DNA from: Oceanihabitans sediminis
Lineage (GTDB): Bacteria; Bacteroidota; Bacteroidia; Flavobacteriales; Flavobacteriaceae
Assembly (NCBI RefSeq): GCF_003337215.1
Contig: NZ_QPIG01000002.1
Span: 434,001-498,000 of the forward strand
Reading direction: 5' to 3'
DNA length: 64,000 nt
Shown: positions 24,223 through 43,750 of the stretch, in pieces
Position numbering within the stretch: position 1 is the stretch's first letter
Layout of the letters: each line of letters opens with the position of its first letter
The notes under the pieces: generated by a model
Seen by the model: only the letters and a program-made list of their open reading frames with translations
Databases searched by the model: none
What the model was told of the DNA's origin: nothing
Made by a program: the position numbers and the translations under genes

Positions 24223-24783
24223 ATGAAAACATACTTCGCTACCTTTCTATTTTTGCTCATAAGCGCTTCAGTATTTGCGCAAAACATTCCCTTCAATCAA
24301 AACCCAAAATACACTTCAAGCGTTAATCCTAATTATAATTCTAGAATAAATCCTGAATATACTTCAGATATAAACCCTAGGTACAATACAGAGATTAACC
24401 CAAAATATAACGCGAAAATTAACCCTACATTCAATTCGAGTATAAACCCAAAATATCTATCTAAACTAAACCCAACTTACAACTCTAAAATAAATCCTAA
24501 ATACAACAATAACCTTAACCCTTTATATACTTTTACAGATAAAAAGTATCTTTTCAATGAAGCCTCTGAAGCTATTGGAGTACTGATTTACGCTAACTCT
24601 GATGTATATTTATATTACGATATGAACAACGAATGGATTGGCTATTTTATACGGGCTAATACCAATTACAATCTTTTTAGTTTAGATAGTGAATGGACAA
24701 ACAAATATTTGTGCTCCGATTTACAGAATGGTTATAATTTATTTGAATCTAATGGAGAATGGACAGGAAATCACGTTAAATAA
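24223..24783 (+). CDS. secreted protein with ten 8-residue NPxY repeats
   Basis: A 186-residue protein. The signal peptide (KTYFATFLFLLISASVFAQ) ends at about residue 20. Residues 27-104 are nine complete 8-residue repeats with consensus N-P-x-Y-N-S-x-I plus a tenth partial one. The C-terminal 80 residues contain three looser repeats around Y-N-L-F and EWTG. The protein is exported to periplasm or surface; the repeats may form an elongated beta structure or a binding surface. No known family. It appears to be a single-gene unit. Confidence 0.75.
   Translation: MKTYFATFLFLLISASVFAQNIPFNQNPKYTSSVNPNYNSRINPEYTSDINPRYNTEINPKYNAKINPTFNSSINPKYLSKLNPTYNSKINPKYNNNLNPLYTFTDKKYLFNEASEAIGVLIYANSDVYLYYDMNNEWIGYFIRANTNYNLFSLDSEWTNKYLCSDLQNGYNLFESNGEWTGNHVK
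24301..24534 (+). repeat. tandem 24-bp coding repeats
   Basis: Nine 24-base units run without gaps from 24301 to 24516 with a partial tenth to 24534. Each encodes NPxYxSxI-like octets. DNA copies are diverged while the Asn-Pro and aromatic positions are kept, which points to selection on the protein. Confidence 0.85.
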
Positions 24784-26979: not shown

Positions 26980-27798
26980 TTACATTTTAAAAGTAATTAC
27001 CGGACGTCTTGAGTGGTTTGCTACGTCTTCAGAAACACTACCTTTAATAAAGTGATTTAATCCTTTTCTTGCATTCGTTATTACAGCAATTAAATCTGCA
27101 TCTACCATATCTGCATATTGAATAATACCATCTTCAATAGTATAACCAGCTATAAACTCTACCTGATCAGACCCTCCTGCAGCTGTAAATTCTTTTACTT
27201 TTTTATTGAAAACTTTAGAGCTTATAAACCTTTTGTTTGGTCCATTAACATAAACTAGTTTTACGCTACTACCAAGTTTTGAAAGTAGGCTTGCTGCTTT
27301 CTTATACGTATCGATACTTTCTATACTAAGGTCTGTTGCTAAAACAACATCTTTAAGTGTAAAGTCTATTGGCTCTGTTTTTACAATTAACACAGGAGTG
27401 CTGCTGTTTCTAACCATTTTTTCTGCGTTAGAACCAGCAAATATACCGTCTTGAAGTGTAAGACCTTGAGATCCCATGATAATTAAATCTGCTTGTAACT
27501 CTTTAGCTACAGCATCAACTTCACTATAAACTTTGTGTTTTTTAATTACAGGTACTACTTCAATTCCTTTCAAATAATCTTTATCTAAAAAAGCTTCAAA
27601 TTTCTTTCTTGCTAAAGCAAGCATGAACATCATTTCGTTTTGGGTATCTGAACTAGAAATAGAAATTATAGAATCTGATAACTCTAACATATGCAAAACA
27701 TGTAAGGTTGCCCCATGCTTTTTTGCTAGTATAGCTCCTGTTTGTAATGCGTATTCAGATTGTTGAGAGAAATCAACTGGAATGATAATGTTTTTCAT
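26980..27798 (-). CDS. universal stress protein, tandem UspA
   Basis: A 272-residue protein with two UspA domains. Domain 1 runs from MKNIIIPVDFSQQSEYALQ to about 145 and has the ATP-binding G-x2-G-x9-G-S/T form in MGSQGLTLQDGIFAGSNAEK with SSTPVLIVK. Domain 2 ends NHFIKGSVSEDVANHSRRPV, a degenerate copy of the same loop. It is downstream of the MscS gene on the same strand (53-base gap), so both may be co-expressed under stress. Confidence 0.9.
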   Translation of the reverse strand: MKNIIIPVDFSQQSEYALQTGAILAKKHGATLHVLHMLELSDSIISISSSDTQNEMMFMLALARKKFEAFLDKDYLKGIEVVPVIKKHKVYSEVDAVAKELQADLIIMGSQGLTLQDGIFAGSNAEKMVRNSSTPVLIVKTEPIDFTLKDVVLATDLSIESIDTYKKAASLLSKLGSSVKLVYVNGPNKRFISSKVFNKKVKEFTAAGGSDQVEFIAGYTIEDGIIQYADMVDADLIAVITNARKGLNHFIKGSVSEDVANHSRRPVITFKM

Positions 27799-27851: not shown

Positions 27852-28952
27852 TTAGTTTTCTTTAGCTTTTTCTGTTTCATTTTTAATATAAACAGTTCTA
27901 GTAGGAAATGCTAAACCGACACCTTCTGCATCAAATCGCTTTTTTGTACTCTCAAAAACATCACATTTTAAAGTAAAAGCATTTCCAAAAGTTTCCGCCC
28001 AAGCCCAAGCTCTAATGGTTACAGATGAATCATTAAATCTCGTTAAAGCTGTTTTTACCATTGGTAAACCATCTTTCTTATCAGCCTCTGTTCTGTTATC
28101 AAAAATAAATGGATGTTTCTCACATTCTTCTCGAAGTATTTTCTTTGCTAGCTCAACATTACTGTCGTAGGTAATTCCCAATTCAATATGTTCACAGCAT
28201 TTCTTTTCTCCAAGGTCGTAGTTAATTAACTTCTCTTTGTTTATAATCGCATTAGGAATTACAATCATTTTATTCTCAAAGTTTCTAATAACAGTATGAC
28301 GCAAAGTAATATCTGTTACAGTTCCAACCATTGTATCGGTTACCTTAATGACATCGCCAATTTTAAAAGGTTTAAATGAAATGATAAACACCCCTCCTAC
28401 AAGGTTAGATAATGCTTCTTGAGATGCAACACCCGCAATAATAGCAATAACTCCTGCTCCACCTAAAGCTGTTTGTGCAACACTTTTCATAGAAGGAAAA
28501 GCCATTAACCCAACAAGAACTCCTATAAAACAAATAGTAAAAACAGCTACGTAACGTAAAAACCTATAGCTTGTTGCATCATAATCTAAAGAAACTTTCT
28601 CTTCTATTTTCTGCTTAAACCATACATTACAACCAGTAGCTAATATGATGGTAATAACCGCTACAAAACCTAAATAACTAATTAGCTTAAAATAACCTAC
28701 AAGTACAATGTCTGTTTCGCGATCTACAAAAACAAAAGATACAGCTATAAAAGCAAGCAATAACCAAAGAGTATTTAAGACCTTTTTCATTATGGTTAAA
28801 GATCTTCCTGAAGAGTGTGAAAACTGCTCTGACTTTTTCTTTAATAACCACTTATGAAGAACATTTGTCAACATACGAAGTAGCATAAATGCTACTAAAA
28901 CTATAGCTATATAGATAAGATGTGACTTGTATGCTTCTAATAATTCTGTCAT
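27852..28952 (-). CDS. MscS-type mechanosensitive ion channel
   Basis: A 366-residue protein with about four N-terminal membrane helices and the MscS pore helix and vestibule: GGAGVIAIIAGVASQEALSN is the glycine/alanine-packed TM3, followed by GVFIISFKPFKIGDVIKV and VIPNAIINKEKLINYD in the beta domain. The C-terminal alpha/beta domain is present. It releases solutes on hypo-osmotic shock at the inner membrane. It precedes the universal stress gene. Confidence 0.9.
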   Translation of the reverse strand: MTELLEAYKSHLIYIAIVLVAFMLLRMLTNVLHKWLLKKKSEQFSHSSGRSLTIMKKVLNTLWLLLAFIAVSFVFVDRETDIVLVGYFKLISYLGFVAVITIILATGCNVWFKQKIEEKVSLDYDATSYRFLRYVAVFTICFIGVLVGLMAFPSMKSVAQTALGGAGVIAIIAGVASQEALSNLVGGVFIISFKPFKIGDVIKVTDTMVGTVTDITLRHTVIRNFENKMIVIPNAIINKEKLINYDLGEKKCCEHIELGITYDSNVELAKKILREECEKHPFIFDNRTEADKKDGLPMVKTALTRFNDSSVTIRAWAWAETFGNAFTLKCDVFESTKKRFDAEGVGLAFPTRTVYIKNETEKAKEN

Positions 28953-29021: not shown

Positions 29022-30428
29022 TTACTTCCACCCACCTCCAAGTGCTTGATATAAATCAATAATAGCTTGTAACTGACTGTTTTTTGCAGTAACTAATCCT
29101 AAACTTGAATTAAGTGCATTTTCTTCTGCTCTTAATACTTCTAAATAATTAGCTAAACCGTTGTTTAATAATTCTTCTGAATAATCTGTAGCTACATCGT
29201 AGGCATCAAATTCTTTTTGTTTGATTTCGATTTTTTCTGAAGCTGCATTATACGCATACATTGCATCAGAAACTTCTTTTGAAGCTACTAATAAAGATTG
29301 TACAAAGTTTAAACGAGCTTGTTCTTGTCTAGCTTCTGAAACCTCGTATTGCGTTTTAATTTTTCTTCCATTTAAAATTGGTTGTGCTATTCCTCCAATA
29401 ACATTTGCAAACAGAGAGTTAGCGCTAAACAAATCTTCTAATTCTAAGCTTTGTAATCCTCCATTTGCTGATAAAGATAAAGAAGGATAAAAGTTAGTAC
29501 GTGCAACGTTAGTCAGTTCAAAGGCATTTCTTAAATTATATTCAGCTGCAATAACATCTGGCCTATTACTTAATAATTGCGCAGGAACACCGTGCGTAAG
29601 TTCTGTATCAATTTTCTGCTCCGCTAAAGTTCCTCTTTCTATTTCTTTTGGCATGTCTCCTAAAAGAATAGATAAGGTATTTTCTAAAATATGCGATTGC
29701 TGTTTTAAATCAACTAAAAGAGCTTGCGCTGTATAAAGCTGTGCTTCGGTTTGCTTTACACCAACTTCTGTTACACTTCCAGCTTCTTTTAAAGCTTTAG
29801 AAGTTTCTAATCCATTCTCTCTAGTTTTAATAGTTTGCTCTGTAATTTTGATTTGCTCATCTACAGCAAGCAATTGATAATAAACGGAAGCAATATTTGC
29901 TATTAAACGAGTTTTAACGGCTTTATGTGCTGCTACTGTTTGCAAATAACTTGCTTGAAAAGCGCGCTCATTAGATCTAATTTTACCCCAAATATCTGCC
30001 TCCCATGATAAAGCTCCAGAGAGTTCATATTGGTCTAAAGAACTACCAAATGCTCCCATCTGACTGTTTTTAGACATTTCTTGATGTGTATATTTTGCAT
30101 TTGCAGATAAAGTTGGATAATATCCAGCTTTACCTTGTTTGAAATAAGCTTCAGAAGCTACGATTTGCTGTAAAGCTACACGGATGTCGATATTATTTGC
30201 TAATCCTTTCTCTATGTGCTTCGTAAGAACAGGATCGGTAAATATTTCTTTCCAAGAAACATCTGCTATAGTCAAGCTATCTTCAGCAATGTTATCTGTT
30301 CTAAACTTCGCTTCGTCTATATTTAATTCTGTTAATTCTGGTTGCGTATATTCTTTCGCTACAAAACAAGATTGAAGCGTTAGCATTAAAGCAATAAACG
30401 AACTGAATTTTATAATTGTATTTTTCAT
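29022..30428 (-). CDS. RND efflux outer membrane factor (TolC/NodT family)
   Basis: A 468-residue outer-membrane lipoprotein. The signal peptide ends at the lipobox LTLQSC (C21). Two repeats of the OEP domain follow, with coiled-coil-forming helices (for example KQTEAQLYTAQALLVDLKQQ) and the family phrase LLSNRPDVIAAEYNLRNA. It forms the exit duct for the RND pump encoded just upstream with a 27-base gap. Last gene of the efflux operon. Confidence 0.92.
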   Translation of the reverse strand: MKNTIIKFSSFIALMLTLQSCFVAKEYTQPELTELNIDEAKFRTDNIAEDSLTIADVSWKEIFTDPVLTKHIEKGLANNIDIRVALQQIVASEAYFKQGKAGYYPTLSANAKYTHQEMSKNSQMGAFGSSLDQYELSGALSWEADIWGKIRSNERAFQASYLQTVAAHKAVKTRLIANIASVYYQLLAVDEQIKITEQTIKTRENGLETSKALKEAGSVTEVGVKQTEAQLYTAQALLVDLKQQSHILENTLSILLGDMPKEIERGTLAEQKIDTELTHGVPAQLLSNRPDVIAAEYNLRNAFELTNVARTNFYPSLSLSANGGLQSLELEDLFSANSLFANVIGGIAQPILNGRKIKTQYEVSEARQEQARLNFVQSLLVASKEVSDAMYAYNAASEKIEIKQKEFDAYDVATDYSEELLNNGLANYLEVLRAEENALNSSLGLVTAKNSQLQAIIDLYQALGGGWK

Positions 30429-30455: not shown

Positions 30456-33400
30456 TTAAGCTTCTTCTGTTACTACTGCTGGTTTTGTACTCACTTTTTC
30501 GTGTAACCATTGGAATAATATATACAGAATAGGAATAATAAATAAACCTAAAATAGTACCAATTACCATTCCTCCTACAGCTCCAGTACCAATTGCACGG
30601 TTTCCTTCTGCTCCAACTCCTGTTGCAATTACTAATGGTGTTAAACCGAAGATAAATGCAAGAGATGTCATTAAAATTGGTCTTAAACGTGCTTTAGCTC
30701 CTTCAAATGCTGCATCAGCAATACTTAATCCTTGACGTCTTCTTTGAATAGCAAACTCCACAATTAGAATCGCGTTTTTCGCTAATAAACCAATTAACAT
30801 GACCAGTGCAATTTGGAAATAAATATTGTTCTCTAATCCAGACAACTTGGTAGTTATAAATGCTCCAAAGATTCCTAACGGTAATGATAAAATAACTGCA
30901 AACGGAATTAAGTAACTCTCATATTGCGCTGCTAATAAGAAGTACACGAATACAACAACTAATATTAAAATCATAGTTGTTTGGTTTCCTGCTGCTAACT
31001 CCTCACGAGTTAAACCGGAATATACCGTTGTATAATTACTTGGTAAAGAAGCAGCAACTTCTTCTACAGCTGCAATACCATCTCCAGTACTAAATCCAGG
31101 ATTTAAAGCTCCTGTAATAGATGTAGAGTTAAATAAGTTGAAACGAGTTACCGATTGTGGTCCAAAATCACGTTCTAAGGTTACGAATTGTGTAATTGGC
31201 GCCATTTCTCCAGAACCAGTTTTTACATACAAGTTATTTAAGGCTTGCTTATCTGCTCTATCTTCTGGTTTTGCTTGAATATAAACTCTAAACTGTTTAC
31301 CGAAACGAGAGAAATCTGCAGCATAAACACTACCTATATAACCTTGCATAGTATTAAAAATACTATTGATATTTACACCATATTCCTTTGCAAGTGGCAC
31401 ATTGATATCTAACTTATACTGTGGATATCTTGTACTAAATGAAGAGTTTGCATATTGAAACTCAGGTCTCATACTTAAGTTTCTAATAAACTCTTGGTTA
31501 GCAGCATCTAAATCTGTAAAACTTCCTCCAGAACGATCTAATAAGTTCACTTCTACACCAGCAGAATTTCCGAATCCTGGAATACTTGGTGGAGAGAAGA
31601 ATATAATCTTAGCTTCTGGAATTGTAGCGGCCATACCAAATAACTGACCAATAATAGCTTTTGCTGAAGTAGCTTCAGTAGTACGTTCTTCCCAGTTTTT
31701 AAGTTTAATAAATCCTAAACCGTAGTTACTACCTTCACCACTAATTAAACTTCTACCATTTACCAAAGTAACAGCTTCAACTCCTTCAATTTGTCTAATC
31801 TTTTTGCTTAACATTTCGTTTACCTCAGCAGTTCTATCTACAGATGCTCCTGTTGGTAATTCGATATTTGTAAAGATAATTCCTCTATCCTCATCTGGAA
31901 CGAAACCAGTTGGTGTTGTATTTGCAGCATACCAAATTCCTACTACTGCTCCTACAAGAATAACAACATTGATCCATTTGTGTCTATATAAGAAACCTAA
32001 TGACTGACCGTATTTTCTAGTCATTGCACTAAAACCTCTGTTAAATGCATCATAGAAACGCTGTAACATAGATTTCTTTTTATCTTCTTCGGAATGTGGT
32101 TTTAAGAAAATAGCACATAAAGCAGGACTCAGTGTTAATGCGTTTACTGCAGAAATCATAATAGCTACAATAAGTGTAACACCAAATTGTTCATAGAAAA
32201 CTCCTGTTGGACCTGTGATAAATGTTACCGGAACGAATACCGCTGCCATTACTAAAGTAATAGAAACAATTGCTCCAGAAATTTCACTCATCGCTGTTAT
32301 TGTTGCTTTCTGCACATCTTTTGCTCCTTCATCAATCTTAGCATGTACGGCTTCTACCACAACAATGGCATCATCTACCACAATACCAATGGCAAGCAGT
32401 AAGGCGAATAAGGTTAATAAGTTAATAGAGTAACCGAATAAATTCAGGAAAAAGAAAGTACCAACAATAGATACCGGAACCGCAATTGCCGGAATTAATG
32501 TGGATCTGAAATCTTGTAAAAACAAGAATACAACTAAGAAAACTAATATAAAGGCTTCAATTAAAGTAGAAACTACCTTATTTACCGAAGCATTTAAGAA
32601 TTCATTTGTGTCATACGGAATCAGGTAATTAATTCCTTTTGGGAAATCTTTCTCTAAACTAGCTAATTCTGTTTTTACTTCTTCAATAATTGCTTGTGCA
32701 TCGGAACCTTTTGTTTGAAAAACCCCTAAAGCAACAGCTGGATTACCATTTGTTTTTGCACTAGAAGCGTAAGACAAGGCATCTAATTCAATTTCAGCTA
32801 CATCTTTTAATCTTAAGAATTCACCATTACCTAAAGATTTAATGATAATATTCTCATACTGTTCTTGGTTATTAAAACGTCCATCGTAAGTAATTACATA
32901 CGAAAAAGATTCTCCACTGTTTTCACCTAGTGTACCTGCAGCTACTTCCTGACTCTGCTCATTAATAGCAGCAGAAATATCTGAAGGAGCTAAACCGTAT
33001 GCCGCTAACTTATCTGGCTTAATCCAAATACGCATTGCGTAGTCTTTACCACCAAAAATAGATACATTACCAACCCCTTTTACACGTTGGAAAGCTGGTA
33101 CTACGTTAATCTTTAAGTAGTTTTGAAGATAAGTATCGTTATAAGCTTCGTTTTCACTAAAGAAACTAATAAACATTAACGCACTAGTTTGTTGTTTTTG
33201 CGTTAAAACTCCTGTTTGTCTAACAGCAGCAGGTAATAATGGATTTGCACGTGCTACACGGTTTTGAACGTTTACAGCTGCAATATCTGGATCAACATCT
33301 TGATCAAAATACACAGTGATACTTGCCGTACCTGAGTTTGTTGCAGTAGAAGTAATATATGTCATTCCTTCTACCCCATTAATTTGTTCTTCAATAGGAA

Positions 33401-33587
33401 TAATAACACTCTCTAATACTGTTGCAGCAGTTGCTCCTGGATAGGATGCTGAAACTTGAATGGTTGGAGGTGCAATATCTGGATATTGGGTTACAGAAAG
33501 GGATTGCAACCCTAAAATTCCCAATATTACTATAATGATGGAGATTACTGTAGAAAGTACAGGTCTCGTTATAAATGTTTTTAACAT
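30456..33587 (-). CDS. RND multidrug efflux permease, HAE1 family (AcrB-like)
   Basis: A 1043-residue inner-membrane proton antiporter with the normal AcrB length and duplicated 6-TM layout. TM1 is VLSTVISIIIVILGILGLQS; TM4 carries the proton-relay aspartates in GIVVDDAIVVVEAV; TM10 region has the Lys of LLAKNAILIVEFAIQRR. Large periplasmic loops between TM1-2 and TM7-8 are intact. It works with the adaptor and TolC partner on either side to expel hydrophobic drugs, detergents or bile-like compounds. Substrates are not predictable. Confidence 0.95.
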   Translation of the reverse strand: MLKTFITRPVLSTVISIIIVILGILGLQSLSVTQYPDIAPPTIQVSASYPGATAATVLESVIIPIEEQINGVEGMTYITSTATNSGTASITVYFDQDVDPDIAAVNVQNRVARANPLLPAAVRQTGVLTQKQQTSALMFISFFSENEAYNDTYLQNYLKINVVPAFQRVKGVGNVSIFGGKDYAMRIWIKPDKLAAYGLAPSDISAAINEQSQEVAAGTLGENSGESFSYVITYDGRFNNQEQYENIIIKSLGNGEFLRLKDVAEIELDALSYASSAKTNGNPAVALGVFQTKGSDAQAIIEEVKTELASLEKDFPKGINYLIPYDTNEFLNASVNKVVSTLIEAFILVFLVVFLFLQDFRSTLIPAIAVPVSIVGTFFFLNLFGYSINLLTLFALLLAIGIVVDDAIVVVEAVHAKIDEGAKDVQKATITAMSEISGAIVSITLVMAAVFVPVTFITGPTGVFYEQFGVTLIVAIMISAVNALTLSPALCAIFLKPHSEEDKKKSMLQRFYDAFNRGFSAMTRKYGQSLGFLYRHKWINVVILVGAVVGIWYAANTTPTGFVPDEDRGIIFTNIELPTGASVDRTAEVNEMLSKKIRQIEGVEAVTLVNGRSLISGEGSNYGLGFIKLKNWEERTTEATSAKAIIGQLFGMAATIPEAKIIFFSPPSIPGFGNSAGVEVNLLDRSGGSFTDLDAANQEFIRNLSMRPEFQYANSSFSTRYPQYKLDINVPLAKEYGVNINSIFNTMQGYIGSVYAADFSRFGKQFRVYIQAKPEDRADKQALNNLYVKTGSGEMAPITQFVTLERDFGPQSVTRFNLFNSTSITGALNPGFSTGDGIAAVEEVAASLPSNYTTVYSGLTREELAAGNQTTMILILVVVFVYFLLAAQYESYLIPFAVILSLPLGIFGAFITTKLSGLENNIYFQIALVMLIGLLAKNAILIVEFAIQRRRQGLSIADAAFEGAKARLRPILMTSLAFIFGLTPLVIATGVGAEGNRAIGTGAVGGMVIGTILGLFIIPILYILFQWLHEKVSTKPAVVTEEA

Positions 33588-33626
33588 GATTGCTTATGTT
33601 TTGATTTCGTTATGAAACACTAAAAT

Positions 33627-34769
33627 TTATTGAAACTCTGCTTTGATAGGTTCTGTTACGCTATCAAAATCTGTTTTTTGAGGCTCTACTGGTGTACCAT
33701 CACGAAGTTTACCAATACCAGTAACAATAACAGCTTCTCCTTTTTCTAGACCTGATTCAACAATAAATAAATTATCTGTTTTACCTTTAATTTTAATCGC
33801 TTTTGCTAATGCAAGCATTGCATTACTAGAGTCCTTTTTAACTGTATAAACAAATCTGCTATTTTGGTTTTCAAAAGTTGCCGATTGTGGAATCACTAAA
33901 ACATCTTCAAAAACAGTTGGTACTTTTAAGGTTCCACTATTTCCGTTGTTTAAAATTCCGCTTGCATTATCAAACAAAGCTCTAAAAGAAATAGTACCTG
34001 TTTGTTTGTTTACTTGTGAGTTGATGGTTTCAATTTTTCCTTTTGAAGCATATTCGCTTCCGTTTGCTAAAACTAAAGTTACTTTGTCAAGATTTTTGAT
34101 CTTTTCATCTTTTGTTTCTCCTTTAGCATTCTGAATAAAATCAATATACTCACTTTCGTTCATAGAAAAATAAGCAAATACATTACTAATATCTGAAACG
34201 GTAGTTAAAGGCATTTGATTTGAAGGACTAACTAACGACCCTTTTCTTAATCTTATTTCACCAACATAACCATCTACTGGACTTTTTATAGTACCATAAC
34301 CAATATTAGAAGCAATACTGTTATAACTACTTTTAGCTTGTTCTAACTTAGCTTTAGCAGTTTCTAATTGTACAGCACTAATAATATTTTTTTCTACTAA
34401 TGGTTTTAATTTATTCACCTCCACTTGAGCAGCATTTACATTAGCCCTTGCTGCTGCAGCATCTTGGTTCATAGATTGGGTTTCTAGTTTGAATAAGGTT
34501 TGACCTTTACGAACTTTCTGCCCTTCATCAACTAATACATCTGTGATATAACCTGTGATTTTAGCTCTAACTTCACTATTTACAACACCTTCAATACGGG
34601 TCGGGTATTCTTTATAAGTTGTAACTGTTTTAGTTGGCACTTCTATTACTGGTAATGGCATTGCTCTTTGCTGTGCAGCCATTGGGTTTTGAGATGCTTT
34701 ATCATCTCCGCAAGAAGTTGCTAAAAATAGCAACGAAATAGATAAAATGGATTTAGTGATTGTATTCAT
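33627..34769 (-). CDS. RND efflux periplasmic adaptor (membrane fusion protein)
   Basis: A 380-residue lipoprotein: signal peptide with lipobox LATSCGDD (C20). The HlyD/AcrA order is visible: beta-barrel start EGVVNSEVRAKITGYI, lipoyl half VDEGQKVRKGQTLFKLE, hairpin helices near 105-150, second lipoyl half TIKSPVDGYVGEIRLRKGSL, then the MFP barrel. It bridges the pump and the outer membrane channel. It starts 13 bases after the regulator gene. Confidence 0.93.
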   Translation of the reverse strand: MNTITKSILSISLLFLATSCGDDKASQNPMAAQQRAMPLPVIEVPTKTVTTYKEYPTRIEGVVNSEVRAKITGYITDVLVDEGQKVRKGQTLFKLETQSMNQDAAAARANVNAAQVEVNKLKPLVEKNIISAVQLETAKAKLEQAKSSYNSIASNIGYGTIKSPVDGYVGEIRLRKGSLVSPSNQMPLTTVSDISNVFAYFSMNESEYIDFIQNAKGETKDEKIKNLDKVTLVLANGSEYASKGKIETINSQVNKQTGTISFRALFDNASGILNNGNSGTLKVPTVFEDVLVIPQSATFENQNSRFVYTVKKDSSNAMLALAKAIKIKGKTDNLFIVESGLEKGEAVIVTGIGKLRDGTPVEPQKTDFDSVTEPIKAEFQ

Positions 34770-34782
34770 TTTTTGGTAGTGT

Positions 34783-35283
34783 TTATTTGCTTGTTTCTTT
34801 TAATTTTTCAAATTGTATTAAGGTGTCGTTCAATTTTGTTAATTGATCATGTAACAAGTCCTTGTATAAAGTGCCTATTGCTTTTTCAACTTCAAATTTA
34901 TTAGGATTATTATTTTCATTAAAATCATTTACCTTTTGGATAATTTTAAGCGACTTCTCTATAAGATGCGCCTGTTGTTCCATGGTGTTTTTAAGATAAT
35001 AATCCGATGTTCTAAAATATCTTTTCCGATCACCAGGCTTTGTGTAGTACTCTATATAATGTAATTGTAAAAGCACATTAACATTATTAGACACCGAGCT
35101 TTTACTTGCTTGCATGGCGCAAACAATGTTTTCAAAACTCATTCCTTCGCGAGAAGACAGAATTAGTAGCGCGTAAATTCTAGAAGCTAAAGGCGAAAGT
35201 CCTGCCCGCTCTTCTAAATACACCCCTACTTCTTCAATAAGTTGTTGCTTTTGGTTTGACAACTCCATTTTCTTAACTATCAT
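34783..35283 (-). CDS. GbsR/MarR-type transcriptional regulator of the efflux operon
   Basis: A 166-residue winged-helix protein: GLSPLASRIYALLILSSREG, then SFENIVCAMQASKSSVSNNV as the recognition helix-turn-helix, and a wing RKRYFRTSDYY. It has the GbsR-like layout with a long C-terminal helical dimerisation part. It is the first gene of the efflux operon and sits behind a perfect palindrome over its own promoter, so autoregulation is likely, with ligand binding releasing repression. Confidence 0.9.
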   Translation of the reverse strand: MIVKKMELSNQKQQLIEEVGVYLEERAGLSPLASRIYALLILSSREGMSFENIVCAMQASKSSVSNNVNVLLQLHYIEYYTKPGDRKRYFRTSDYYLKNTMEQQAHLIEKSLKIIQKVNDFNENNNPNKFEVEKAIGTLYKDLLHDQLTKLNDTLIQFEKLKETSK

Positions 35284-35297
35284 TTAAATTAACTTTG

Positions 35298-35333
35298 CAA
35301 AGATAGCTTTAGTTCGTTTACTTACGAACTAAA
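35298..35333 (-). promoter_or_regulatory. efflux operon promoter with palindromic operator
   Basis: On the minus strand the -7 element TATCTTTG (35305-35298) is preceded after two bases by the perfect palindrome TTTAGTTCGT-N6-ACGAACTAAA (35308-35333 on the plus strand). The -33 position (TTCG) falls in the far arm, so a bound regulator would cover the core promoter. ATG of the regulator is about 15 bases after the -7. Confidence 0.8.
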
Positions 35334-35384
35334 CAACGTTAAGTGTTTGTTAAAAATTTAATAGGTAAGATTGGAGATAAAAAA

Positions 35385-35423
35385 AACTAACTAAAAGACT
35401 GCCAATCAACCTTTTAATTAGTT
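35385..35423 (-). terminator. terminator of nhaA
   Basis: AACTAACTAAAAG (35385-35397) pairs with CTTTTAATTAGTT (35411-35423) with one mismatch; the preceding A-run is a U-tract on the minus strand. It lies 28 bases after the nhaA stop. Confidence 0.7.
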
Positions 35424-35450
35424 CATGTATTATTTGAGTAAGCTTATTAG

Positions 35451-36770
35451 TTAGGAAAGCTTTGCTTCCGATTTTTTCTTGTTAAAGTCTATTCGTAGAA
35501 TAGTGTATCCTATAATTGCGGAAATAAAGGATCCAATTAATATTCCGATTTTAGCGGAATCTATATATTCTGGATGGGTTGCAAATGCTAAACTAGCAAT
35601 AAAAATAGCCATAGTAAAGCCGATTCCTGCTAAGAATGAAACCCCAATAATTTCTTTAGTTTTAATGTCTGAAGGAACTTCAATTAACTTCACTTTTTTA
35701 GCAATCCATACAATTGAAGAAATTCCTACACTCTTACCTACTACTAAACAAACAATAATATTAACTACTAATACAGTATCTAGGTTTTCTGAACCAGCAA
35801 TTAAAACTCCTGCATTAGCTAATGCAAATACCGGAATAATAAAATAGGCCACAATGCTGTGTAAGTTATGTTCTAAGTTTTGTAATGGTGATTGGAATTT
35901 AGAAGACCAATCGTTTAAATCATCCATATAACGAAGCTGTTCATGTGAAAGAATAGGTTTCTGTAAAACACTCGCATTCTTAATGTTATTATACACATTA
36001 GACAGTTGAGATAAGAACTCTGTACTCTCTATTTTTTGTCTAATAGGGACTGCAAAGGCCATTAAAATACCTGCTACTGTAGGGTGTATTCCTGAATTTA
36101 AGAATAAGAACCAAATAATAATTCCGAAGAATAAATATACGTAAGTATTGTAAGCACCTTTACTAGAGTACCAATATAAAATTCCTAATAACGCTAAAGC
36201 AATTAACAAAGAGCTAATAACAATACTACCACTATAAAACAATGCAATTACTAAAACTGCACCTATATCATCTACTATTGCAAAAGCCGTTAAGAATACT
36301 TTTAAACTTAATGGTACACGGGAACCTAAAGCATTTAAAATAGCCAAAGAAAAGGCTATATCTGTAGCCATAGGAATACCCCAACCTTTTACTGTTTCTG
36401 GATTTTGATTAATTAACAAGTAAAACATTACAGGAATTAACATCCCTCCTAGAGCCCCCACTAAAGGAAAAGCTATTTTTCTTGCAGAATTAAGCTCTCC
36501 AATTAAAAGCTCTCGTTTAATTTCTAAACCAATTAGAAAGAAGAAAATTGCCATTAATCCATCATTAACCCATAAGATTAAAGGCATTTTAAATTCGAAA
36601 GATTCTGTAACAATTCCTAAATCATACTGCCATATATCCCTATACAAATCTCCAAAGCCTGAATTAGCCCAAGCTAAAGCTACCATAGTTGCGAGTAAAA
36701 GTAAAATACCACTAGAACTTTGTAGTTGAAAAAACTTTCTAAAAGGAGACAGGAATACTTTCTTTATCAT
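35451..36770 (-). CDS. nhaA: Na+/H+ antiporter NhaA
   Basis: A 439-residue inner-membrane antiporter with the family's 12-helix pattern: WVNDGLMAIFFFLIGLEIKR, MATDIAFSLAILNALGSR and AIVDDIGAVLVIALFYS, the last giving the paired aspartates (D163/D164 in E. coli) for Na+/H+ exchange. Length is slightly above E. coli NhaA (388) owing to a loop near 255-300. It provides sodium and pH homeostasis, fitting a marine organism. It is a single-gene transcript with its own terminator. Confidence 0.95.
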   Translation of the reverse strand: MIKKVFLSPFRKFFQLQSSSGILLLLATMVALAWANSGFGDLYRDIWQYDLGIVTESFEFKMPLILWVNDGLMAIFFFLIGLEIKRELLIGELNSARKIAFPLVGALGGMLIPVMFYLLINQNPETVKGWGIPMATDIAFSLAILNALGSRVPLSLKVFLTAFAIVDDIGAVLVIALFYSGSIVISSLLIALALLGILYWYSSKGAYNTYVYLFFGIIIWFLFLNSGIHPTVAGILMAFAVPIRQKIESTEFLSQLSNVYNNIKNASVLQKPILSHEQLRYMDDLNDWSSKFQSPLQNLEHNLHSIVAYFIIPVFALANAGVLIAGSENLDTVLVVNIIVCLVVGKSVGISSIVWIAKKVKLIEVPSDIKTKEIIGVSFLAGIGFTMAIFIASLAFATHPEYIDSAKIGILIGSFISAIIGYTILRIDFNKKKSEAKLS

Positions 36771-37135
36771 ATAATTAGATTTGTTACTGCGAAAATAAAT
36801 TCAAAGATAAGATTTCAATATTAGAAATTTTAATATTAAATCTTCATTTTAGAATTTTTAACTAAAAAACAATATACGAAATTCAGCAAGGTTTCAAAAA
36901 ATCGACGCTTGTTTTTTAAGAATATTCTTTAACAAACATCACATTAAACACTAAAAATCAAAATCTTATAAAAACACTTTAAAACTCTTCCTGTTCCTTC
37001 CTAAATCAAATCCAAGCAGTTTTAAGCTAAAAGAGAAGTTTATAATCTTAACAGACAATTAACATTGAAAAGGTATTTTGAAATAGAAAAATCAAGATAA
37101 AACCGGATTAAATAAACTAAAACAGATCTTGTTTT
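36771..37135. other. non-coding gap holding the nhaA promoter
   Basis: These 365 bases separate cls from nhaA, both on the minus strand. On the minus strand TATCTTTG (36809-36802) is a good -7 element 32 bases before the nhaA start. The remainder is AT-rich and shows no frame or strong hairpin. Confidence 0.55.
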
Positions 37136-38590
37136 TTATAAAAATGGAGACAGTAGTCGCACAAATTTTTCCCATAACTTGACATATTTTGGTCGACTAA
37201 GCCAAGCTTCAGCATCAATTTGCTCGGAGTCTTTTAAATCGTTCTCGAAGGCTTCTGCTAGTTGTTTATTTAGGTTTTTACTATACAACATGGCATTTAC
37301 TTCAAAATTAAGATCGAAGCTTCTATAGTCCATATTAGCAGAGCCTATAATAGCTAAATCATCATCTATCACCATTGTTTTAGCATGTACAAATCCTTTA
37401 TCGTATTTATAAATTTTCGCACCGTACTGAAGTAATTCGGTATAATAAGAACTAGCTGCAATATTTACCGTTTTAGAATCTGAAACTCCTGGAACTAAAA
37501 GCTTAACATCCAATCCGCTTTGAATTGCTATAATTAAAGCATCCATTAAACTCTCTCCTGGAATAAAATAAGGACTTGTAATATAAATTCTATTTTTAGC
37601 AGAATTAATAGCTTCTAATAGGGAGTAAAAAATTACCGGTTGCGGACTATCGGGTCCGGATGCTGCTATTTGCACTACTTCATGCTCTATAGTTTCTTGC
37701 TTAAGAAAATCTGGAAAATAATTTTGTGTGTACTCTAATTTATTTTTACTACAAAAATTCCAATCACACATAAACAGGTATTGCAGGTATGAAACCGCTT
37801 GCCCCCTTAACAAGACATGTGTATCACGCCAATAAATATGTTTTTCTATATGTAAATCATTTCGGTATTTATCACTCATATTAATGCCTCCAACAAAACC
37901 AACATTGCCATCTATAACCACTATCTTTCTATGGTTTCTGTAGTTGATTCGGTTTGCAAAAGCGTACCAGGTGATTTTATAAAAAGGAGCCGTTTCTATA
38001 CCTGCATCGTTTAACTTTTGAATAAAACTTTGTCCTAATCCATGACTTCCATAGTCGTCATACAAAAAACGAACCTCAACACCTTCTCTAGCCTTTTTAA
38101 TTAAAACGTCTGCAACTTGATTTCCAGTGATATCATTTTGATATACATAATATTCGATATGTATATGAGAAGTTGCTTTTTCTAAAGCTTTTAATAATTC
38201 CGGAAACTTCTCCTCGCCATTAATAAGTAGTTTTACTTCATTGTTCGCTGTTAATGGACTTGTTCCTGATCTCCGAAGATATTCGGTTAAATTTGCACGT
38301 TTACTTGACACTAATCCGGAATCTCTAACAGATTCTGAATAACGTTTCATCTTTTCCTTAATTCGGTTTCGGAAAGGTTCGTCATGGGAGATTTTCTTGG
38401 TGTAGAGCTTTCTTTTTCGATAGTTAATTCCGAAAGAAAAATAAAAAATCACTCCTATCAACGGAAAAAACACAATAAACAATATATATGCAAGTGCCTT
38501 TGTACTACTTCTTGTATCGTGTAATACTCTAAGAATAGCGAATACTACAATTAAAACATAAACTAATTGCCCAAGTAAAAACCAACTCAT
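37136..38590 (-). CDS. cls: cardiolipin synthase, phospholipase D type
   Basis: A 484-residue membrane enzyme. Two N-terminal helices (residues 5-55) anchor it, followed by two PLD domains with HKD motifs: NHRKIVVIDGNVGFVGG and VHAKTMVIDDDLAIIGSAN. It condenses two phosphatidylglycerol molecules, or PG with PE, to make cardiolipin at the inner membrane. The length matches bacterial ClsA (about 480-500). No partner gene is adjacent. Confidence 0.93.
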   Translation of the reverse strand: MSWFLLGQLVYVLIVVFAILRVLHDTRSSTKALAYILFIVFFPLIGVIFYFSFGINYRKRKLYTKKISHDEPFRNRIKEKMKRYSESVRDSGLVSSKRANLTEYLRRSGTSPLTANNEVKLLINGEEKFPELLKALEKATSHIHIEYYVYQNDITGNQVADVLIKKAREGVEVRFLYDDYGSHGLGQSFIQKLNDAGIETAPFYKITWYAFANRINYRNHRKIVVIDGNVGFVGGINMSDKYRNDLHIEKHIYWRDTHVLLRGQAVSYLQYLFMCDWNFCSKNKLEYTQNYFPDFLKQETIEHEVVQIAASGPDSPQPVIFYSLLEAINSAKNRIYITSPYFIPGESLMDALIIAIQSGLDVKLLVPGVSDSKTVNIAASSYYTELLQYGAKIYKYDKGFVHAKTMVIDDDLAIIGSANMDYRSFDLNFEVNAMLYSKNLNKQLAEAFENDLKDSEQIDAEAWLSRPKYVKLWEKFVRLLSPFL

Positions 38591-38655
38591 AAAATAGATT
38601 TAAATATGAGGTTAAATTAAGATAGTTTTTTGAAACAGCCCATTTAATCTATAAA

Positions 38656-38689
38656 AAAACCTCATAAGCTTTAACACTTATGAGGTTTT
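38656..38689. terminator. bidirectional terminator between cls and tmm
   Basis: AAAACCTCATAAG (38656-38668) pairs perfectly with CTTATGAGGTTTT (38677-38689). Runs of A before and T after allow it to work in both directions; here it closes the monooxygenase transcript on the minus strand. Confidence 0.8.
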
Positions 38690-38727
38690 ATGATTAAGAG
38701 ATTTTAGTTCTTAATTATAAAAAAACT

Positions 38728-40188
<1,461 letters not shown>

Positions 40189-40419
40189 TTAATATTTAAT
40201 AATTCATTTTTAAAAGCTGCGATTTTGCAGCAAAGGAAATAATAAGTCCATGTAAACTATAGTAAGTACTACTATGTAAAATCGAATTTACAATGGAAAA
40301 ATATTTATTATTTCAAACGCGGAGAATATAAGCATTCCTTTAGGTCTTTACAAGCCAGGAACAACACTTAACAAAACATTAGCAAATCCTTTAAATTTGA
40401 GGATTTCCTTCTTTCTTAA

Positions 40420-41322
40420 TTAGGAACGAGGAACAAGCTTCGGGTTCTTCCTTTTTTCTCTAATAAGATAAATTCCTATTAAAATTAAAACGCCTCCTAA
40501 AATATACCAAAAGGTAAATTTCTCGCCATCTATCACACCCCAAATTACAGCTACTATAGGCAATAAGTAACTTACCGAACTTGCAAATACAGCCGAAGTA
40601 TTCTGAATTAATTTATAATATAAAAGCATCGCTATGGCAGTACCAAAAGTGGTTAGAAAAAGTAAGTAAATAAAAGGCTCTACATACGCGTCTTGCATTT
40701 CGAAGTTTTGCACAAAACCAGTAGCATATAAAATCACTAAGGAAGGAACTGCCCAAACGGTATATATAGCTGCAGTTAATTCCACAGCCTTCACCTCTGC
40801 TGTTTTTTGTTTTATTAGAACCGCATTAACACCATAAGATGCTCCTGCAAGCACAATTAACATAGCGTAAGCAAATTGAGATGTTTCGGAATTTGCTTCT
40901 GAAAAATAGATAAGGCTAGTTGCTCCTATAAAACCTATAATAGCACCAAGTATCTGTGATTTTTCACTTTTTATTTTGAAGAATATATAGCCGAAAATCA
41001 ACACAAATATTGGCACTAAAGAATCTAAAATACCCGCTAATGAACTACTAACTCTTGTTTGTGCTATAGGAAATAAGAACATTGGTAAAAAGTTTCCGAA
41101 GAAACCTACAATCGTTACCCAAAGCAAAGTACTTCTAGACATTTTTCTAATTGCTGGAATTCCTATAAAAGCTAATAACAATCCAGAACCAACAACACGA
41201 ATAGCTCCAATTTCATAAGGAGTAAACGCCACAAGGGTTTTCTTTATAAGCATAAAAGAGCTCCCCCAAGTTAATGTGATAATCAACAATAAAAACCAAC
41301 GATTATTAAAAACCTTGCCCAT
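40420..41322 (-). CDS. EamA/DMT family transporter
   Basis: A 300-residue inner-membrane protein with ten predicted helices in two EamA repeats: LITLTWGSSFMLIKKTL opens repeat one, and VLAGASYGVNAVLIKQK opens repeat two. The family exports or imports metabolites, amino acids or nucleosides. It lies next to tmm on the same strand with a 297-base gap, which shows no clear promoter or hairpin. Substrate unknown. Confidence 0.9.
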   Translation of the reverse strand: MGKVFNNRWFLLLIITLTWGSSFMLIKKTLVAFTPYEIGAIRVVGSGLLLAFIGIPAIRKMSRSTLLWVTIVGFFGNFLPMFLFPIAQTRVSSSLAGILDSLVPIFVLIFGYIFFKIKSEKSQILGAIIGFIGATSLIYFSEANSETSQFAYAMLIVLAGASYGVNAVLIKQKTAEVKAVELTAAIYTVWAVPSLVILYATGFVQNFEMQDAYVEPFIYLLFLTTFGTAIAMLLYYKLIQNTSAVFASSVSYLLPIVAVIWGVIDGEKFTFWYILGGVLILIGIYLIREKRKNPKLVPRS

Positions 41323-41399
41323 AACACAAAAGATTAAAGCAGCTATTTTTACATAACTGCTTTATTAAAAACTAAAACTAACGAAAATTCTAAAGAATC

Positions 41400-41433
41400 T
41401 AGCGGAGTTTTTTCATTTTAAATTACTCCGCTA
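41400..41433 (-). terminator. hairpin after the SDR gene
   Basis: TAGCGGAGT (41400-41408) pairs with ACTCCGCTA (41425-41433), loop 16 bases. It follows the SDR stop on the minus strand by 12 bases; the U-tract is weak. Confidence 0.55.
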
Positions 41434-41444
41434 TACTCTTATTT

Positions 41445-42191
41445 TTATCGTAACTTAATATCACCACCATCTGCCATAAGTGTTTGTCCTGTCATATACT
41501 GGCTGTCATCACTTAATAAAAAGGCTACGATTGGTGCTACATCTTTTTGTGGATCTCCAAAACGTCCTAGCGGATTTTTACTAATAATTTCCTCATATTG
41601 CTCTGGAAAATGCTCTTTCCATTGCTTTACACCTTCGGTAAGTGCTAAGGGACAAACAACATTTACTCTAATACCATCTTCTGCCCATTCATTTGCTACC
41701 ACACGAGACAAGCCTCTAATTGCTTCCTTTGCTGCAGCATAACTTCCTTGGTTTTTTTGACCAAGTAAACCTGCTCCGGAACCAAAGTTTACAATAGATC
41801 CTTTTGTTTTTTTAAGTTCTGGGTAGGCTGCTTTCATAAAGTTTAATGTTCCTTTTAAACCTGTATTCATAGATAGCTCCCAATCTGCATCGGTAAGTTC
41901 CAGTATTGGTTTTTGACGAGATGCATGTGCATTATTCACCACACTTGTTAATTTTCCGAATTTAGAAACAGCTAATGCTACAGCTTCTTTTGCAACAGCT
42001 TCTTTGGATATATCTCCTTTTATAAATGCAATTTGTTCTGGATTTGATGCTACTTTCTCTTTTCCTGCTTCTTCATTCAAATCTACTGCAACCACACAAG
42101 CTCCTCTTTCGGTTAGTTCTGTTGTCATTGCTCCACCAATTCCTGCAGCTCCTCCTGTGATGATTATCACTTTGTCTTTTAAATTTTTCAT
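41445..42191 (-). CDS. short-chain dehydrogenase/reductase
   Basis: A 248-residue classical SDR: TGGAAGIGGAM (cofactor), NNAHAS, a Ser in NFGSGAGLLG and Y-x-x-x-K in SYAAAKEAIRG; the end MTGQTLMADGG is the standard family close. FabG-like size and order, but the substrate is not predictable. It starts 43 bases after the GNAT gene and probably shares its transcript. Confidence 0.92.
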   Translation of the reverse strand: MKNLKDKVIIITGGAAGIGGAMTTELTERGACVVAVDLNEEAGKEKVASNPEQIAFIKGDISKEAVAKEAVALAVSKFGKLTSVVNNAHASRQKPILELTDADWELSMNTGLKGTLNFMKAAYPELKKTKGSIVNFGSGAGLLGQKNQGSYAAAKEAIRGLSRVVANEWAEDGIRVNVVCPLALTEGVKQWKEHFPEQYEEIISKNPLGRFGDPQKDVAPIVAFLLSDDSQYMTGQTLMADGGDIKLR

Positions 42192-42234
42192 AATATTTAT
42201 GTATTTTAATTTAATTAGAGAATTCTTTTCTTTT

Positions 42235-42681
42235 TTAGTTAACAGCTAAAGTCATAACAATACGCGCTTCATTATCTAAAAAATAGTTGTTTAAAACCGG
42301 ACTTCCTTCAAAACCTAAATCCTTATAAATTTTTATAGCTGCTTTATTTTCTGGAAATACTGTCAAAGCAATTTCTTTAAGATCTTCCGTTTTTAAAACT
42401 TCAATCAATTGTTCTGTTAATTGCTTACCTAAGCCTCTACCTCTAGCCTTTTCTGATACACCGAGAGATAAAACCCATGCCTGCTTTTGTTTAGTATTAA
42501 CCGCCCCTAAAGCATAACCTAAAATCTGATTATCTTCTTCTGCTACTATAAAATAATGCCCTGAAACATCAAAAAGTTGCCTTACTACAAATGCCGGATA
42601 ACTACCAGAGCCAAAAATTTTCTTTTCTATTGCAATGATGCTTTCTAGGTCTGTTAACGCTGCTTTTCTAAAGTTTACCAT
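42235..42681 (-). CDS. GNAT N-acetyltransferase (RimI-like)
   Basis: A 148-residue GNAT with the acetyl-CoA loop R/Q-x-x-G-x-G/A in ARGRGLGKQL (about residue 84-93), the preceding beta strand ALGAVNTKQKQAWVLSLGVS and the C-terminal NKAAIKIYKDLGFEG. It resembles RimI and similar protein-N-terminal acetyltransferases. The SDR gene follows. No substrate is evident. Confidence 0.88.
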   Translation of the reverse strand: MVNFRKAALTDLESIIAIEKKIFGSGSYPAFVVRQLFDVSGHYFIVAEEDNQILGYALGAVNTKQKQAWVLSLGVSEKARGRGLGKQLTEQLIEVLKTEDLKEIALTVFPENKAAIKIYKDLGFEGSPVLNNYFLDNEARIVMTLAVN

Positions 42682-42748
42682 TTAAACTATATTTAGATTT
42701 TACTTATTCTTAATTAACTACAACTGATTGCTTAAAAACACGTTATTC

Positions 42749-43585
42749 TTAGTGCATGTAAATAGCTTCAAAAACTGCTAAAGGTGCTCTTCTGCCAACA
42801 TTTAAAGATAATACATCTCCATCTATAATATAGTTATCTGCAATTTCGAAAATCTTTAAAAATTCTGCTTCGTTAAAATCAACATCTGGACAAGCCTTTA
42901 AAGTTGTTGCCATGTTTGTAAAACGAATTCTGTTTCCTTCTTCTAAAACATATACTCCTTGCATAATATTACAACCTGCAAATCCGGTAACGCTGTTATT
43001 ATGTCCTTTTAAAGTGAAATAAACTTCTCGCTCTTGGTTGTCTGTCATGCTAACTTCTTTCCCTTCTAGAGTTTTAAGTTTCCAGTATTTTTCAACAATA
43101 GGTTCGTTTGAAACTACAGCTTTTTTAAACACTGCTAAAGGTGCTCGCTTCGCTTTGTTTAAAGAAAGAGTTCCATCTGAAACAGTAAAATTATCGGCAA
43201 GCTCAAAAACACTTAAAACTTCCGCTTCATTAATTTTTAGATCTGGACACATCATTCGTGTAGATCCTAATTCAGAAAACGAAATACGATTTCCTTCCTC
43301 TATAGTATATGTCCCCATAAAGGTATTACATCCTGATTTTCCGCTTACACGATTCGTTTCAGCATCTAAAATGAAATATATTTCTTGTTCCCCTGTAAGG
43401 TCTTGCCCTTCCAAGGAACTGATAAGCCATTTTGTGTTTTCAATGCTTTTTTCTACTGTAGTCATTGTTTTCTCTGTAGATGTTTCCGGATTTGCTTCAA
43501 TAGCTTTCTCTCCTTTTTTCTTGTCTGAATTACAGCTTACCATAGACAATGTTATAACTGCAATTAATAATGCTTTCGTTTTCAA
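42749..43585 (-). CDS. double META (HslJ-like) domain lipoprotein, TTG start
   Basis: A lipoprotein with two META domains. I start at TTG 43585, giving KTKALLIAVITLSMVSC with the lipobox Cys at residue 18; a TTG 13 codons further upstream falls on the -7 promoter element and cannot be used. Each META copy has the family core GKSGCNTFMGTY / GFAGCNIMQGVY and RMMCPDL / LKACPDV, then S.NKAKRAPLAVF / S.NVGRRAPLAVF. HslJ-type proteins are linked to heat shock and novobiocin resistance in E. coli. Its promoter carries the efflux regulator's palindrome. Confidence 0.85.
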   Translation of the reverse strand: MKTKALLIAVITLSMVSCNSDKKKGEKAIEANPETSTEKTMTTVEKSIENTKWLISSLEGQDLTGEQEIYFILDAETNRVSGKSGCNTFMGTYTIEEGNRISFSELGSTRMMCPDLKINEAEVLSVFELADNFTVSDGTLSLNKAKRAPLAVFKKAVVSNEPIVEKYWKLKTLEGKEVSMTDNQEREVYFTLKGHNNSVTGFAGCNIMQGVYVLEEGNRIRFTNMATTLKACPDVDFNEAEFLKIFEIADNYIIDGDVLSLNVGRRAPLAVFEAIYMH

Positions 43586-43621
43586 TAGTATGTTATTTAG
43601 TTTTTCAATAATTAATTTACA

Positions 43622-43657
43622 CAAAAGTACGTTTAGTTCGTTACGTTGCGAACTAAA
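43622..43657 (-). promoter_or_regulatory. META gene promoter with the same operator
   Basis: On the minus strand TACTTTTG (43629-43622) is the -7 element, two bases from a palindrome TTTAGTTCGT-N6-GCGAACTAAA (43632-43657 on the plus strand), 9 of 10 pairs. Sequence, spacing and placement equal those at 35298-35333. Confidence 0.8.
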
Positions 43658-43750
43658 ATCACTTAAGATATTGTTAAAGTTGTATTTTAAGTACTTAAAC
43701 TAAAAAAAGAATAAAGGTAGCGCCTAAAAATAAAATAGTTAATCTCCAAC

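Follow-up and report, generated by a model that had tools for sequence, protein, structure and literature searches.

A GbsR-type regulator predicted to repress an RND efflux operon and a META lipoprotein gene through a shared palindromic operator in Oceanihabitans sediminis

Does a small DNA-binding protein encoded at the head of an RND efflux operon also govern a lipoprotein gene that lies well outside this operon? The question is raised by a stretch of 64,000 nucleotides from Oceanihabitans sediminis (contig NZ_QPIG01000002.1, positions 434,001 to 498,000; hereafter 'the window'), in which a palindrome at the promoter of a GbsR/MarR-type regulator gene and the pump genes behind it recurs, almost unchanged, at the promoter of a gene for a lipoprotein with two META domains (Table 1). 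An original prediction, made from the letters of the window, held that the regulator represses itself, the pump and the lipoprotein as part of a cell-envelope stress response. According to the analysis reported here, a single small DNA-binding protein probably represses both its own pump operon and the META gene by way of these near-identical palindromes; we hold with considerable confidence that the regulator is a GbsR-type autorepressor of the RND operon that also acts on META, binding and repression both being deduced from DNA sequence. A role in the response to cell-envelope stress, judged from the gene content, is plausible.

Palindromic operators and the regulator of the window

The two palindromes stand about 8 kb apart, one at each of two minus-strand promoters, the copy at the regulator being perfect and the copy at META carrying one mismatch. 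The palindrome and near-copy described originally were thus recovered, as were the two-base spacers that separate both from TAnnTTTG, which we take to be the -7 element of Bacteroidota; the interval given at the time (35298-43657) takes the first TAnnTTTG as its start, whereas the palindrome next to it starts at 35308. The agreement had been judged very unlikely to arise by chance, and the controls bear this out: shuffles of the window led us to expect 0.01 sites with at most three mismatches, and none of 100 shuffles reached two. The genome scan that had been suggested as a check (2.91 Mb in 20 contigs, 97% complete) returned at the same threshold only operators 1 and 2, at the regulator and META, with no site for the reversed pattern.

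The ORF (open reading frame) of the regulator has the 166 codons first reported, and the likelier product is a protein of 161 residues, because with translation from the first ATG (35283) the leader would be only about 8-10 nt long (the transcription start being assumed) and the orthologues in genome G209 and in Winogradskyella epiphytica start, by alignment, where the second ATG (35268) lies. The earlier description of a GbsR/MarR-type protein found support in comparisons with the PDB and in the predicted fold. A profile of the regulator family matched two PDB sequences, 4nb5 and Mj223 (1ku9), the latter being the structural template of the GbsR family (phmmer, 7.7e-06; profile, 3.3e-08 over positions 4-142). 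An AlphaFold model built from three sequences (predicted local distance difference test, 85; predicted template modelling score, 0.68) has an N-terminal winged helix and a C-terminal helical dimerisation part, and Foldseek ranked 4nb5 and 1ku9 first, at template modelling scores of ~0.5 that leave the orientation of the domains uncertain, followed by the uncharacterised 5jbr and by MepR, with MexR at rank 18. CudC, a GbsR-type model, matched 34 of 35 homologues at E values of at most 1e-3, below its own cut-off, and MsvR matched all 35, weakly. Given that the CudC cut-off was missed despite these 34 matches, we call the protein GbsR-type and not CudC; on sequence and model, GbsR-type, within the MarR superfamily, appears to be the best label.

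The operator at regulator genes of relatives

Relatives of the regulator were present in 136 of 397 sampled genomes of the family (E values of at most 1e-15), about 22 of the weakest matches lying outside the loci that were fetched. A relaxed scan of the 397 genomes allowing one mismatch was unfit for a survey of regulons, the reversed control matching about equally in many genomes, and a scan allowing three mismatches (sites in at least 116 of the 397) mixed real and chance sites; the counts were therefore redone at regulator genes. To this end the best match to TNRGTTCG-N8-CGAACYNA was sought in the 250 bp upstream of 124 regulator ORFs, comprising the fetched loci, two named loci and the window, some of which had been chosen for a visible palindrome. 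The operator was found with at most two mismatches in 117 of the 124 (none in 70, one in 32, two in 15; three to six in the other 7), the reversed pattern in none, and the operator in 25 of 1330 other ORFs of at least 150 residues, including neighbours that share an intergenic region. In the subset of 60 loci chosen by search rank alone, it was present in 59. The seven exceptions are five META-linked regulators of a sister clade described below (one of them cut by a contig end), G105, and G266, where the start had been set too far upstream and the palindrome is visible just before the gene. A search across the order gave the operator, again with at most two mismatches, at all 14 loci checked, of which two come from family f7 and those of G174 and G349 repeat genomes already counted.

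Downstream of the regulator, on the same strand, an MFP gene (RND periplasmic adaptor) was present in 119 of the 124 cases. Of the 117 operators, 114 have an exact TAnnTTTG that begins 2-8 nt past the 24-mer, and in 84 the distance is exactly 3 nt (2 nt past the 26-mer); of shuffled tails, 298 of 11700 (2.5%) have the element. A second conserved element, TTAACAA, which had been overlooked in the original prediction, lies upstream of the palindrome: 84 of 133 promoters carry it in the 50 nt ahead of the operator, against a mean of 2.3 and a maximum of 6 in shuffles, and in 79 of those 84 its start lies 20-22 nt ahead of the 24-mer; it is present in 12 of 14 operator targets other than regulators. 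In the fetched loci, 68 of 108 operator promoters have TTAACAA 47-50 nt before TAnnTTTG, as opposed to 7 of 335 other promoter-like sites (by eye, two of the seven belong to other ORFs, the remaining five being META promoters or degraded operators), a comparison on which TTAACAA was rejected as a general promoter element. The composite with TTAACAA matched 14 times in the genome of the window and 4 times in the reversed control, and some other promoters therefore share the element.

Several further observations concern the range of the operator. In family f7 (L309, L310) the core GTTC-N10-GAAC is kept, at a greater distance from TAnnTTTG. A long-branch regulator of G336 (L110:9031-9340), whose operator is GTTCT-N8-AGAAC, precedes MscS and a different RND set that is only distantly related (27% identity). 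Besides regulators and META, copies of the operator stand at genes named by eye as HdeD-like (G373, G296), PepSY-like (G093), SdiA-regulated-like lipoprotein (G242) and MFS-like (G010), at L081:10310, L242:8321, L115:9586, L079:12017 and L087:8202; such targets match a theme of envelope or efflux without proving it.

The META operator and the paralogous regulators

The link to META extends beyond the window. In G209, which is of another genus, and in W. epiphytica, whose regulators are each 72% identical to that of the window, META has the operator at the same place before TAnnTTTG. With the strict pattern, for which only sites with no or one mismatch were used (at two mismatches, forward and reversed matches were about equal in all ten genomes searched), G000, G209 and W. 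epiphytica each contain exactly two sites, at the regulator and META. Comparison strongly supports the targets first proposed: the operator stands at 117 of 124 regulators, regulator and META are also the only sites at this strictness in G209 and W. epiphytica, and the protein has a GbsR/MarR-type fold. META with the operator also lies beside a second regulator, of the sister clade, in G306, G080 and G373 and about 1.8 kb from one in G279; G296 has two META homologues, one with the operator and one without; and in a Bizionia metagenome-assembled genome (MAG) the operator precedes a META-looking gene start that is cut by a contig end. In a sample of 15 genomes with 18 META matches (E values of at most 1e-50), the six that have the META operator all hold a regulator of the 16-row clade to which the window protein belongs, as does only G220 among the other nine, G251 being unplaced. 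Leaving out G251, the split is 6 of 7 with a clade regulator and 0 of 7 without (7/3003, ~0.002 one-sided); a Fisher value of 0.0004 that also includes G279, W. epiphytica and the Bizionia MAG is biased, because these three were reached through the regulator. A tree of META proteins places those of the window, W. epiphytica, G220, G209 and G306 together with moderate support (92/84).

A number of results weigh against the regulator as a repressor of pump and META. The META operator, at up to two mismatches, occurs in only six of the 15 genomes (G000, G209, G306, G080, G373 and G296); G273, G053 and G093 have a doubtful match with three mismatches, and none was found in G395, G013, G220, G244, G257 and G251. 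The absence from G220 concerns a genome whose regulator is ~70% identical to that of the window and has a degraded operator at its own gene. Only three of the eight META-linked sister regulators (one of the eight cut by a contig end) have the operator at their own gene with at most two mismatches. The window protein fell short of the Pfam cut-offs for MarR (21.2 vs 24.6) and MarR_2 (21.3 vs 27) and of the NCBIfam cut-off for CudC (25.6 vs 218), and the MscS and Usp genes behind the pump are not constant members of the operon in relatives. On the count of six in 15, we rejected the notion of an operator common to all META genes. Among 14 weaker META homologues, none had the operator at up to two mismatches. 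The many META homologues without the operator, and the pairing of the META operator with a sister paralogue in several relatives, had both escaped the original prediction.

The history of the regulators bears on how these results are to be read. In a tree of the 124 regulators, the window protein groups with those of G209, W. epiphytica and G220 (100/99), inside a group of eight pump-linked rows (99/88); the sister clade of this group likewise has eight rows (100/99), and all 16 hold together at 100/93. Regulators of the sister clade adjoin META or MscS, or stand beside a pump-linked regulator. At E values of at most 1e-3 the family has a single member in G000, G220 and W. epiphytica, and one in G209 besides a distant match at 4.8e-8; a second member in G000 was rejected on this search. 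In G373 the pump operon, its regulator, an EamA-like gene, META and a second regulator lie in a row, and the window retains an EamA-like ORF between the pump operon and META. On the simplest account, the lineage of the window would have lost its META-linked regulator and kept the operator. As the genome of the window has only one member of the family, this single regulator most likely serves both operators.

Were the regulator to control its own RND operon only, the META site would be a relic of the lost sister regulator, bound weakly or not at all. We regard this as unlikely: it would explain why the META operator lies beside a sister regulator in G306, G080 and G373 and why many META homologues, such as that of G220 with its one regulator, have no operator, but three genomes in which no sister regulator turned up in the search (G000, G209 and W. 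epiphytica) have an intact META site, and that of the window is one base off a perfect palindrome. Less likely still, the regulator would bind both sites as an activator, or as activator and repressor. The second conserved element at a fixed upstream distance is in keeping with activation, and activators exist in the MarR superfamily according to the available part of a 2018 survey (PMC6207618); against this, a protein bound between the -33 and -7 regions should exclude polymerase, and the four GbsR-type proteins studied by 2018 are described in the same part as repressors (PMC6207618). That the palindrome is bound by another factor, forms an RNA hairpin or is a chance match is highly improbable, since it tracks the regulator family across genera, lies upstream of the -7 element and so should not be transcribed from either promoter, and is set apart from chance by the shuffles and the reversed control, the latter two ideas having been rejected on the genome scan with its control and on the operator at regulator homologues.

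In the mechanism that we favour, repression of both units by the one regulator, the protein, probably as a dimer, would bind the 26-bp palindrome between the -33 and -7 regions of both promoters and keep RNA polymerase off them; occlusion is the likely mode because the site fills this space. One target would be its own operon (regulator, MFP, RND, OMF, probably MscS and possibly Usp), the other the META gene and, possibly, the two ORFs that follow it. The regulator would be released by an inducer, which may be a pump substrate or a membrane-active compound, and pump, channel and lipoprotein would then rise together. A wider scenario is offered tentatively, at somewhat less than even confidence: a Flavobacteriales branch of GbsR proteins would serve RND efflux by way of a single ancient operator and be specialised for it, in one lineage a duplicated regulator would have come to run a separate envelope regulon of META (and HdeD or MscS), and, the paralogue being lost in the lineage of the window, the pump regulator would have taken over its operator in a merging of regulons that could be traced in present-day relatives, with META as the envelope partner of efflux and TTAACAA, ~48 nt upstream of the -7 element, marking a second partner factor.

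Gene content of the locus and comparison with known systems

MFP, RND and OMF genes lie together behind the regulator, all above curated cut-offs, as in a tripartite RND operon, and the series regulator, MFP, RND, OMF, MscS and Usp is separated by gaps of 13, 39, 27, 69 and 53 bp. MscS is probably on the same transcript as OMF, and Usp possibly so. In the window, G373, G296, W. epiphytica and the Bizionia MAG, all of the regulator clade, MscS stands behind OMF; the stretches fetched for G209 and G080 showed no MscS behind the pump genes, and that of G220 ends at OMF. Among the fetched loci Usp follows MscS in the window only, a homologue in G209 lying ~3 kb behind META. By comparison of 30456-35283 with L153 and L112/L113, the RND protein of the window shares 92% identity with its counterpart in W. 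epiphytica; in the two genomes of the window's own genus the identities to the window proteins are ~36% for the regulator and 71-72% for RND. Horizontal transfer might account for this contrast, as might the differential loss of pump operons that are paralogues.

The lipoprotein matched PF03724 over two stretches at 151.6 bits (cut-off 24) and missed the HslJ equivalog cut-off (54.1 vs 168 bits); by these profiles it is a META protein, not HslJ proper. Its translation probably begins at the TTG at 43585, a position at which G209 has ATG. Elsewhere in the window, an ORF of 186 residues (24223-24783) has a signal-like start and, by eye, some ten repeats that are eight residues long and follow the pattern NPxYNSxI.

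Table 1. Positions of the operators, promoter elements and genes in the window
Feature	Position	Strand or promoter	Basis or remark
Operator 1, perfect palindrome TTTAGTTCGT-N6-ACGAACTAAA (TTTAGTTCGTTTACTTACGAACTAAA)	35308..35333	regulator/RND promoter	window scan, genome scan, relatives
Operator 2, one mismatch (TTTAGTTCGTTACGTTGCGAACTAAA)	43632..43657	META promoter	window scan, genome scan, relatives
-7-like element TATCTTTG (TAnnTTTG)	35298..35305	-	two bases (GC) after operator 1
-7-like element TACTTTTG (TAnnTTTG)	43622..43629	-	two bases (CG) after operator 2
TTAACAA upstream of operator 1	35347..35353	-	promoter comparison, own-genome composite scan
TTAACAA upstream of operator 2	43671..43677	-	promoter comparison, own-genome composite scan
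GbsR/MarR-type regulator, 166 aa (probable start at second ATG, 35268; 161 aa)	34783..35283	-	ORF, profiles, alignment, fold
RND periplasmic adaptor (MFP)	33627..34769	-	TIGR01730, 219 bits (cut-off 94.9)
RND permease, AcrB type	30456..33587	-	TIGR00915, 1117 bits (cut-off 940)
Outer membrane efflux protein (OMF)	29022..30428	-	TIGR01845, 298 bits (cut-off 210)
MscS-type mechanosensitive channel	27852..28952	-	69 bp behind OMF
Universal stress protein (Usp)	26980..27798	-	53 bp behind MscS
Lipoprotein, two META domains (probable TTG start, 43585)	42749..43585	-	PF03724, two stretches
GNAT-like ORF (name by eye)	42235..42681	-	67 bp behind META; possibly co-transcribed
SDR-like ORF (name by eye)	41445..42191	-	43 bp behind GNAT-like ORF; possibly co-transcribed

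In the open-access literature we found no published account of the palindromic operator or of its link to META, and we know of no precedent for META as the second target of a MarR-type efflux repressor. The findings supply an operator that can be tested at many efflux pumps of flavobacteria, connect a META lipoprotein with efflux and, through the pattern of paralogues, offer an instance in which the splitting and merging of small regulons can be watched. Within the part of the 2018 survey available to us, the GbsR-type genes of Bacteroidetes are said to have no consistent neighbourhood, the aromatic cage for choline or betaine is confined to the osmostress sub-group of the family, and TTTAGTTCG-N8-CGAACTAAA is not among the operators described (PMC6207618). 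The Flavobacteriaceae loci do show a consistent GbsR-type neighbourhood, the regulator standing before MFP, in the 119 of 124 cases given above, behind a conserved operator.

Like other members of the GbsR family (GbsR, OpcR, OpuAR and CydE), the protein is of the winged-helix MarR type, related to Mj223, and is predicted to be a local repressor with a palindromic, A/T-rich operator; here its gene heads an RND operon, whereas the studied members, as far as the survey text at hand covers them, control osmolyte uptake or synthesis or cydAB (PMC6207618). The operators of OpcR and GbsR in Bacillus subtilis are likewise inverted repeats through which two or more operons are repressed; their sequences and spacers differ from those reported here and, in the accessible sections of that study, OpcR is placed over the -35 region and GbsR downstream of the start site, where it forms a roadblock (PMC7396694), whereas the present palindrome fits between the -33 and -7 regions. 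HslJ and related proteins share with our lipoprotein a META domain in a stress-linked envelope protein; here two such domains sit on a lipoprotein, and the Acinetobacter gene, in the portion of the report available, is under OxyR (PMC11724541). MexR (mexAB-oprM) and MepR (mepA) exemplify local control of drug pumps by MarR-type proteins, and the fold of the window regulator matches both, although by sequence and fold the regulator is closer to Mj223 and 4nb5 than to either.

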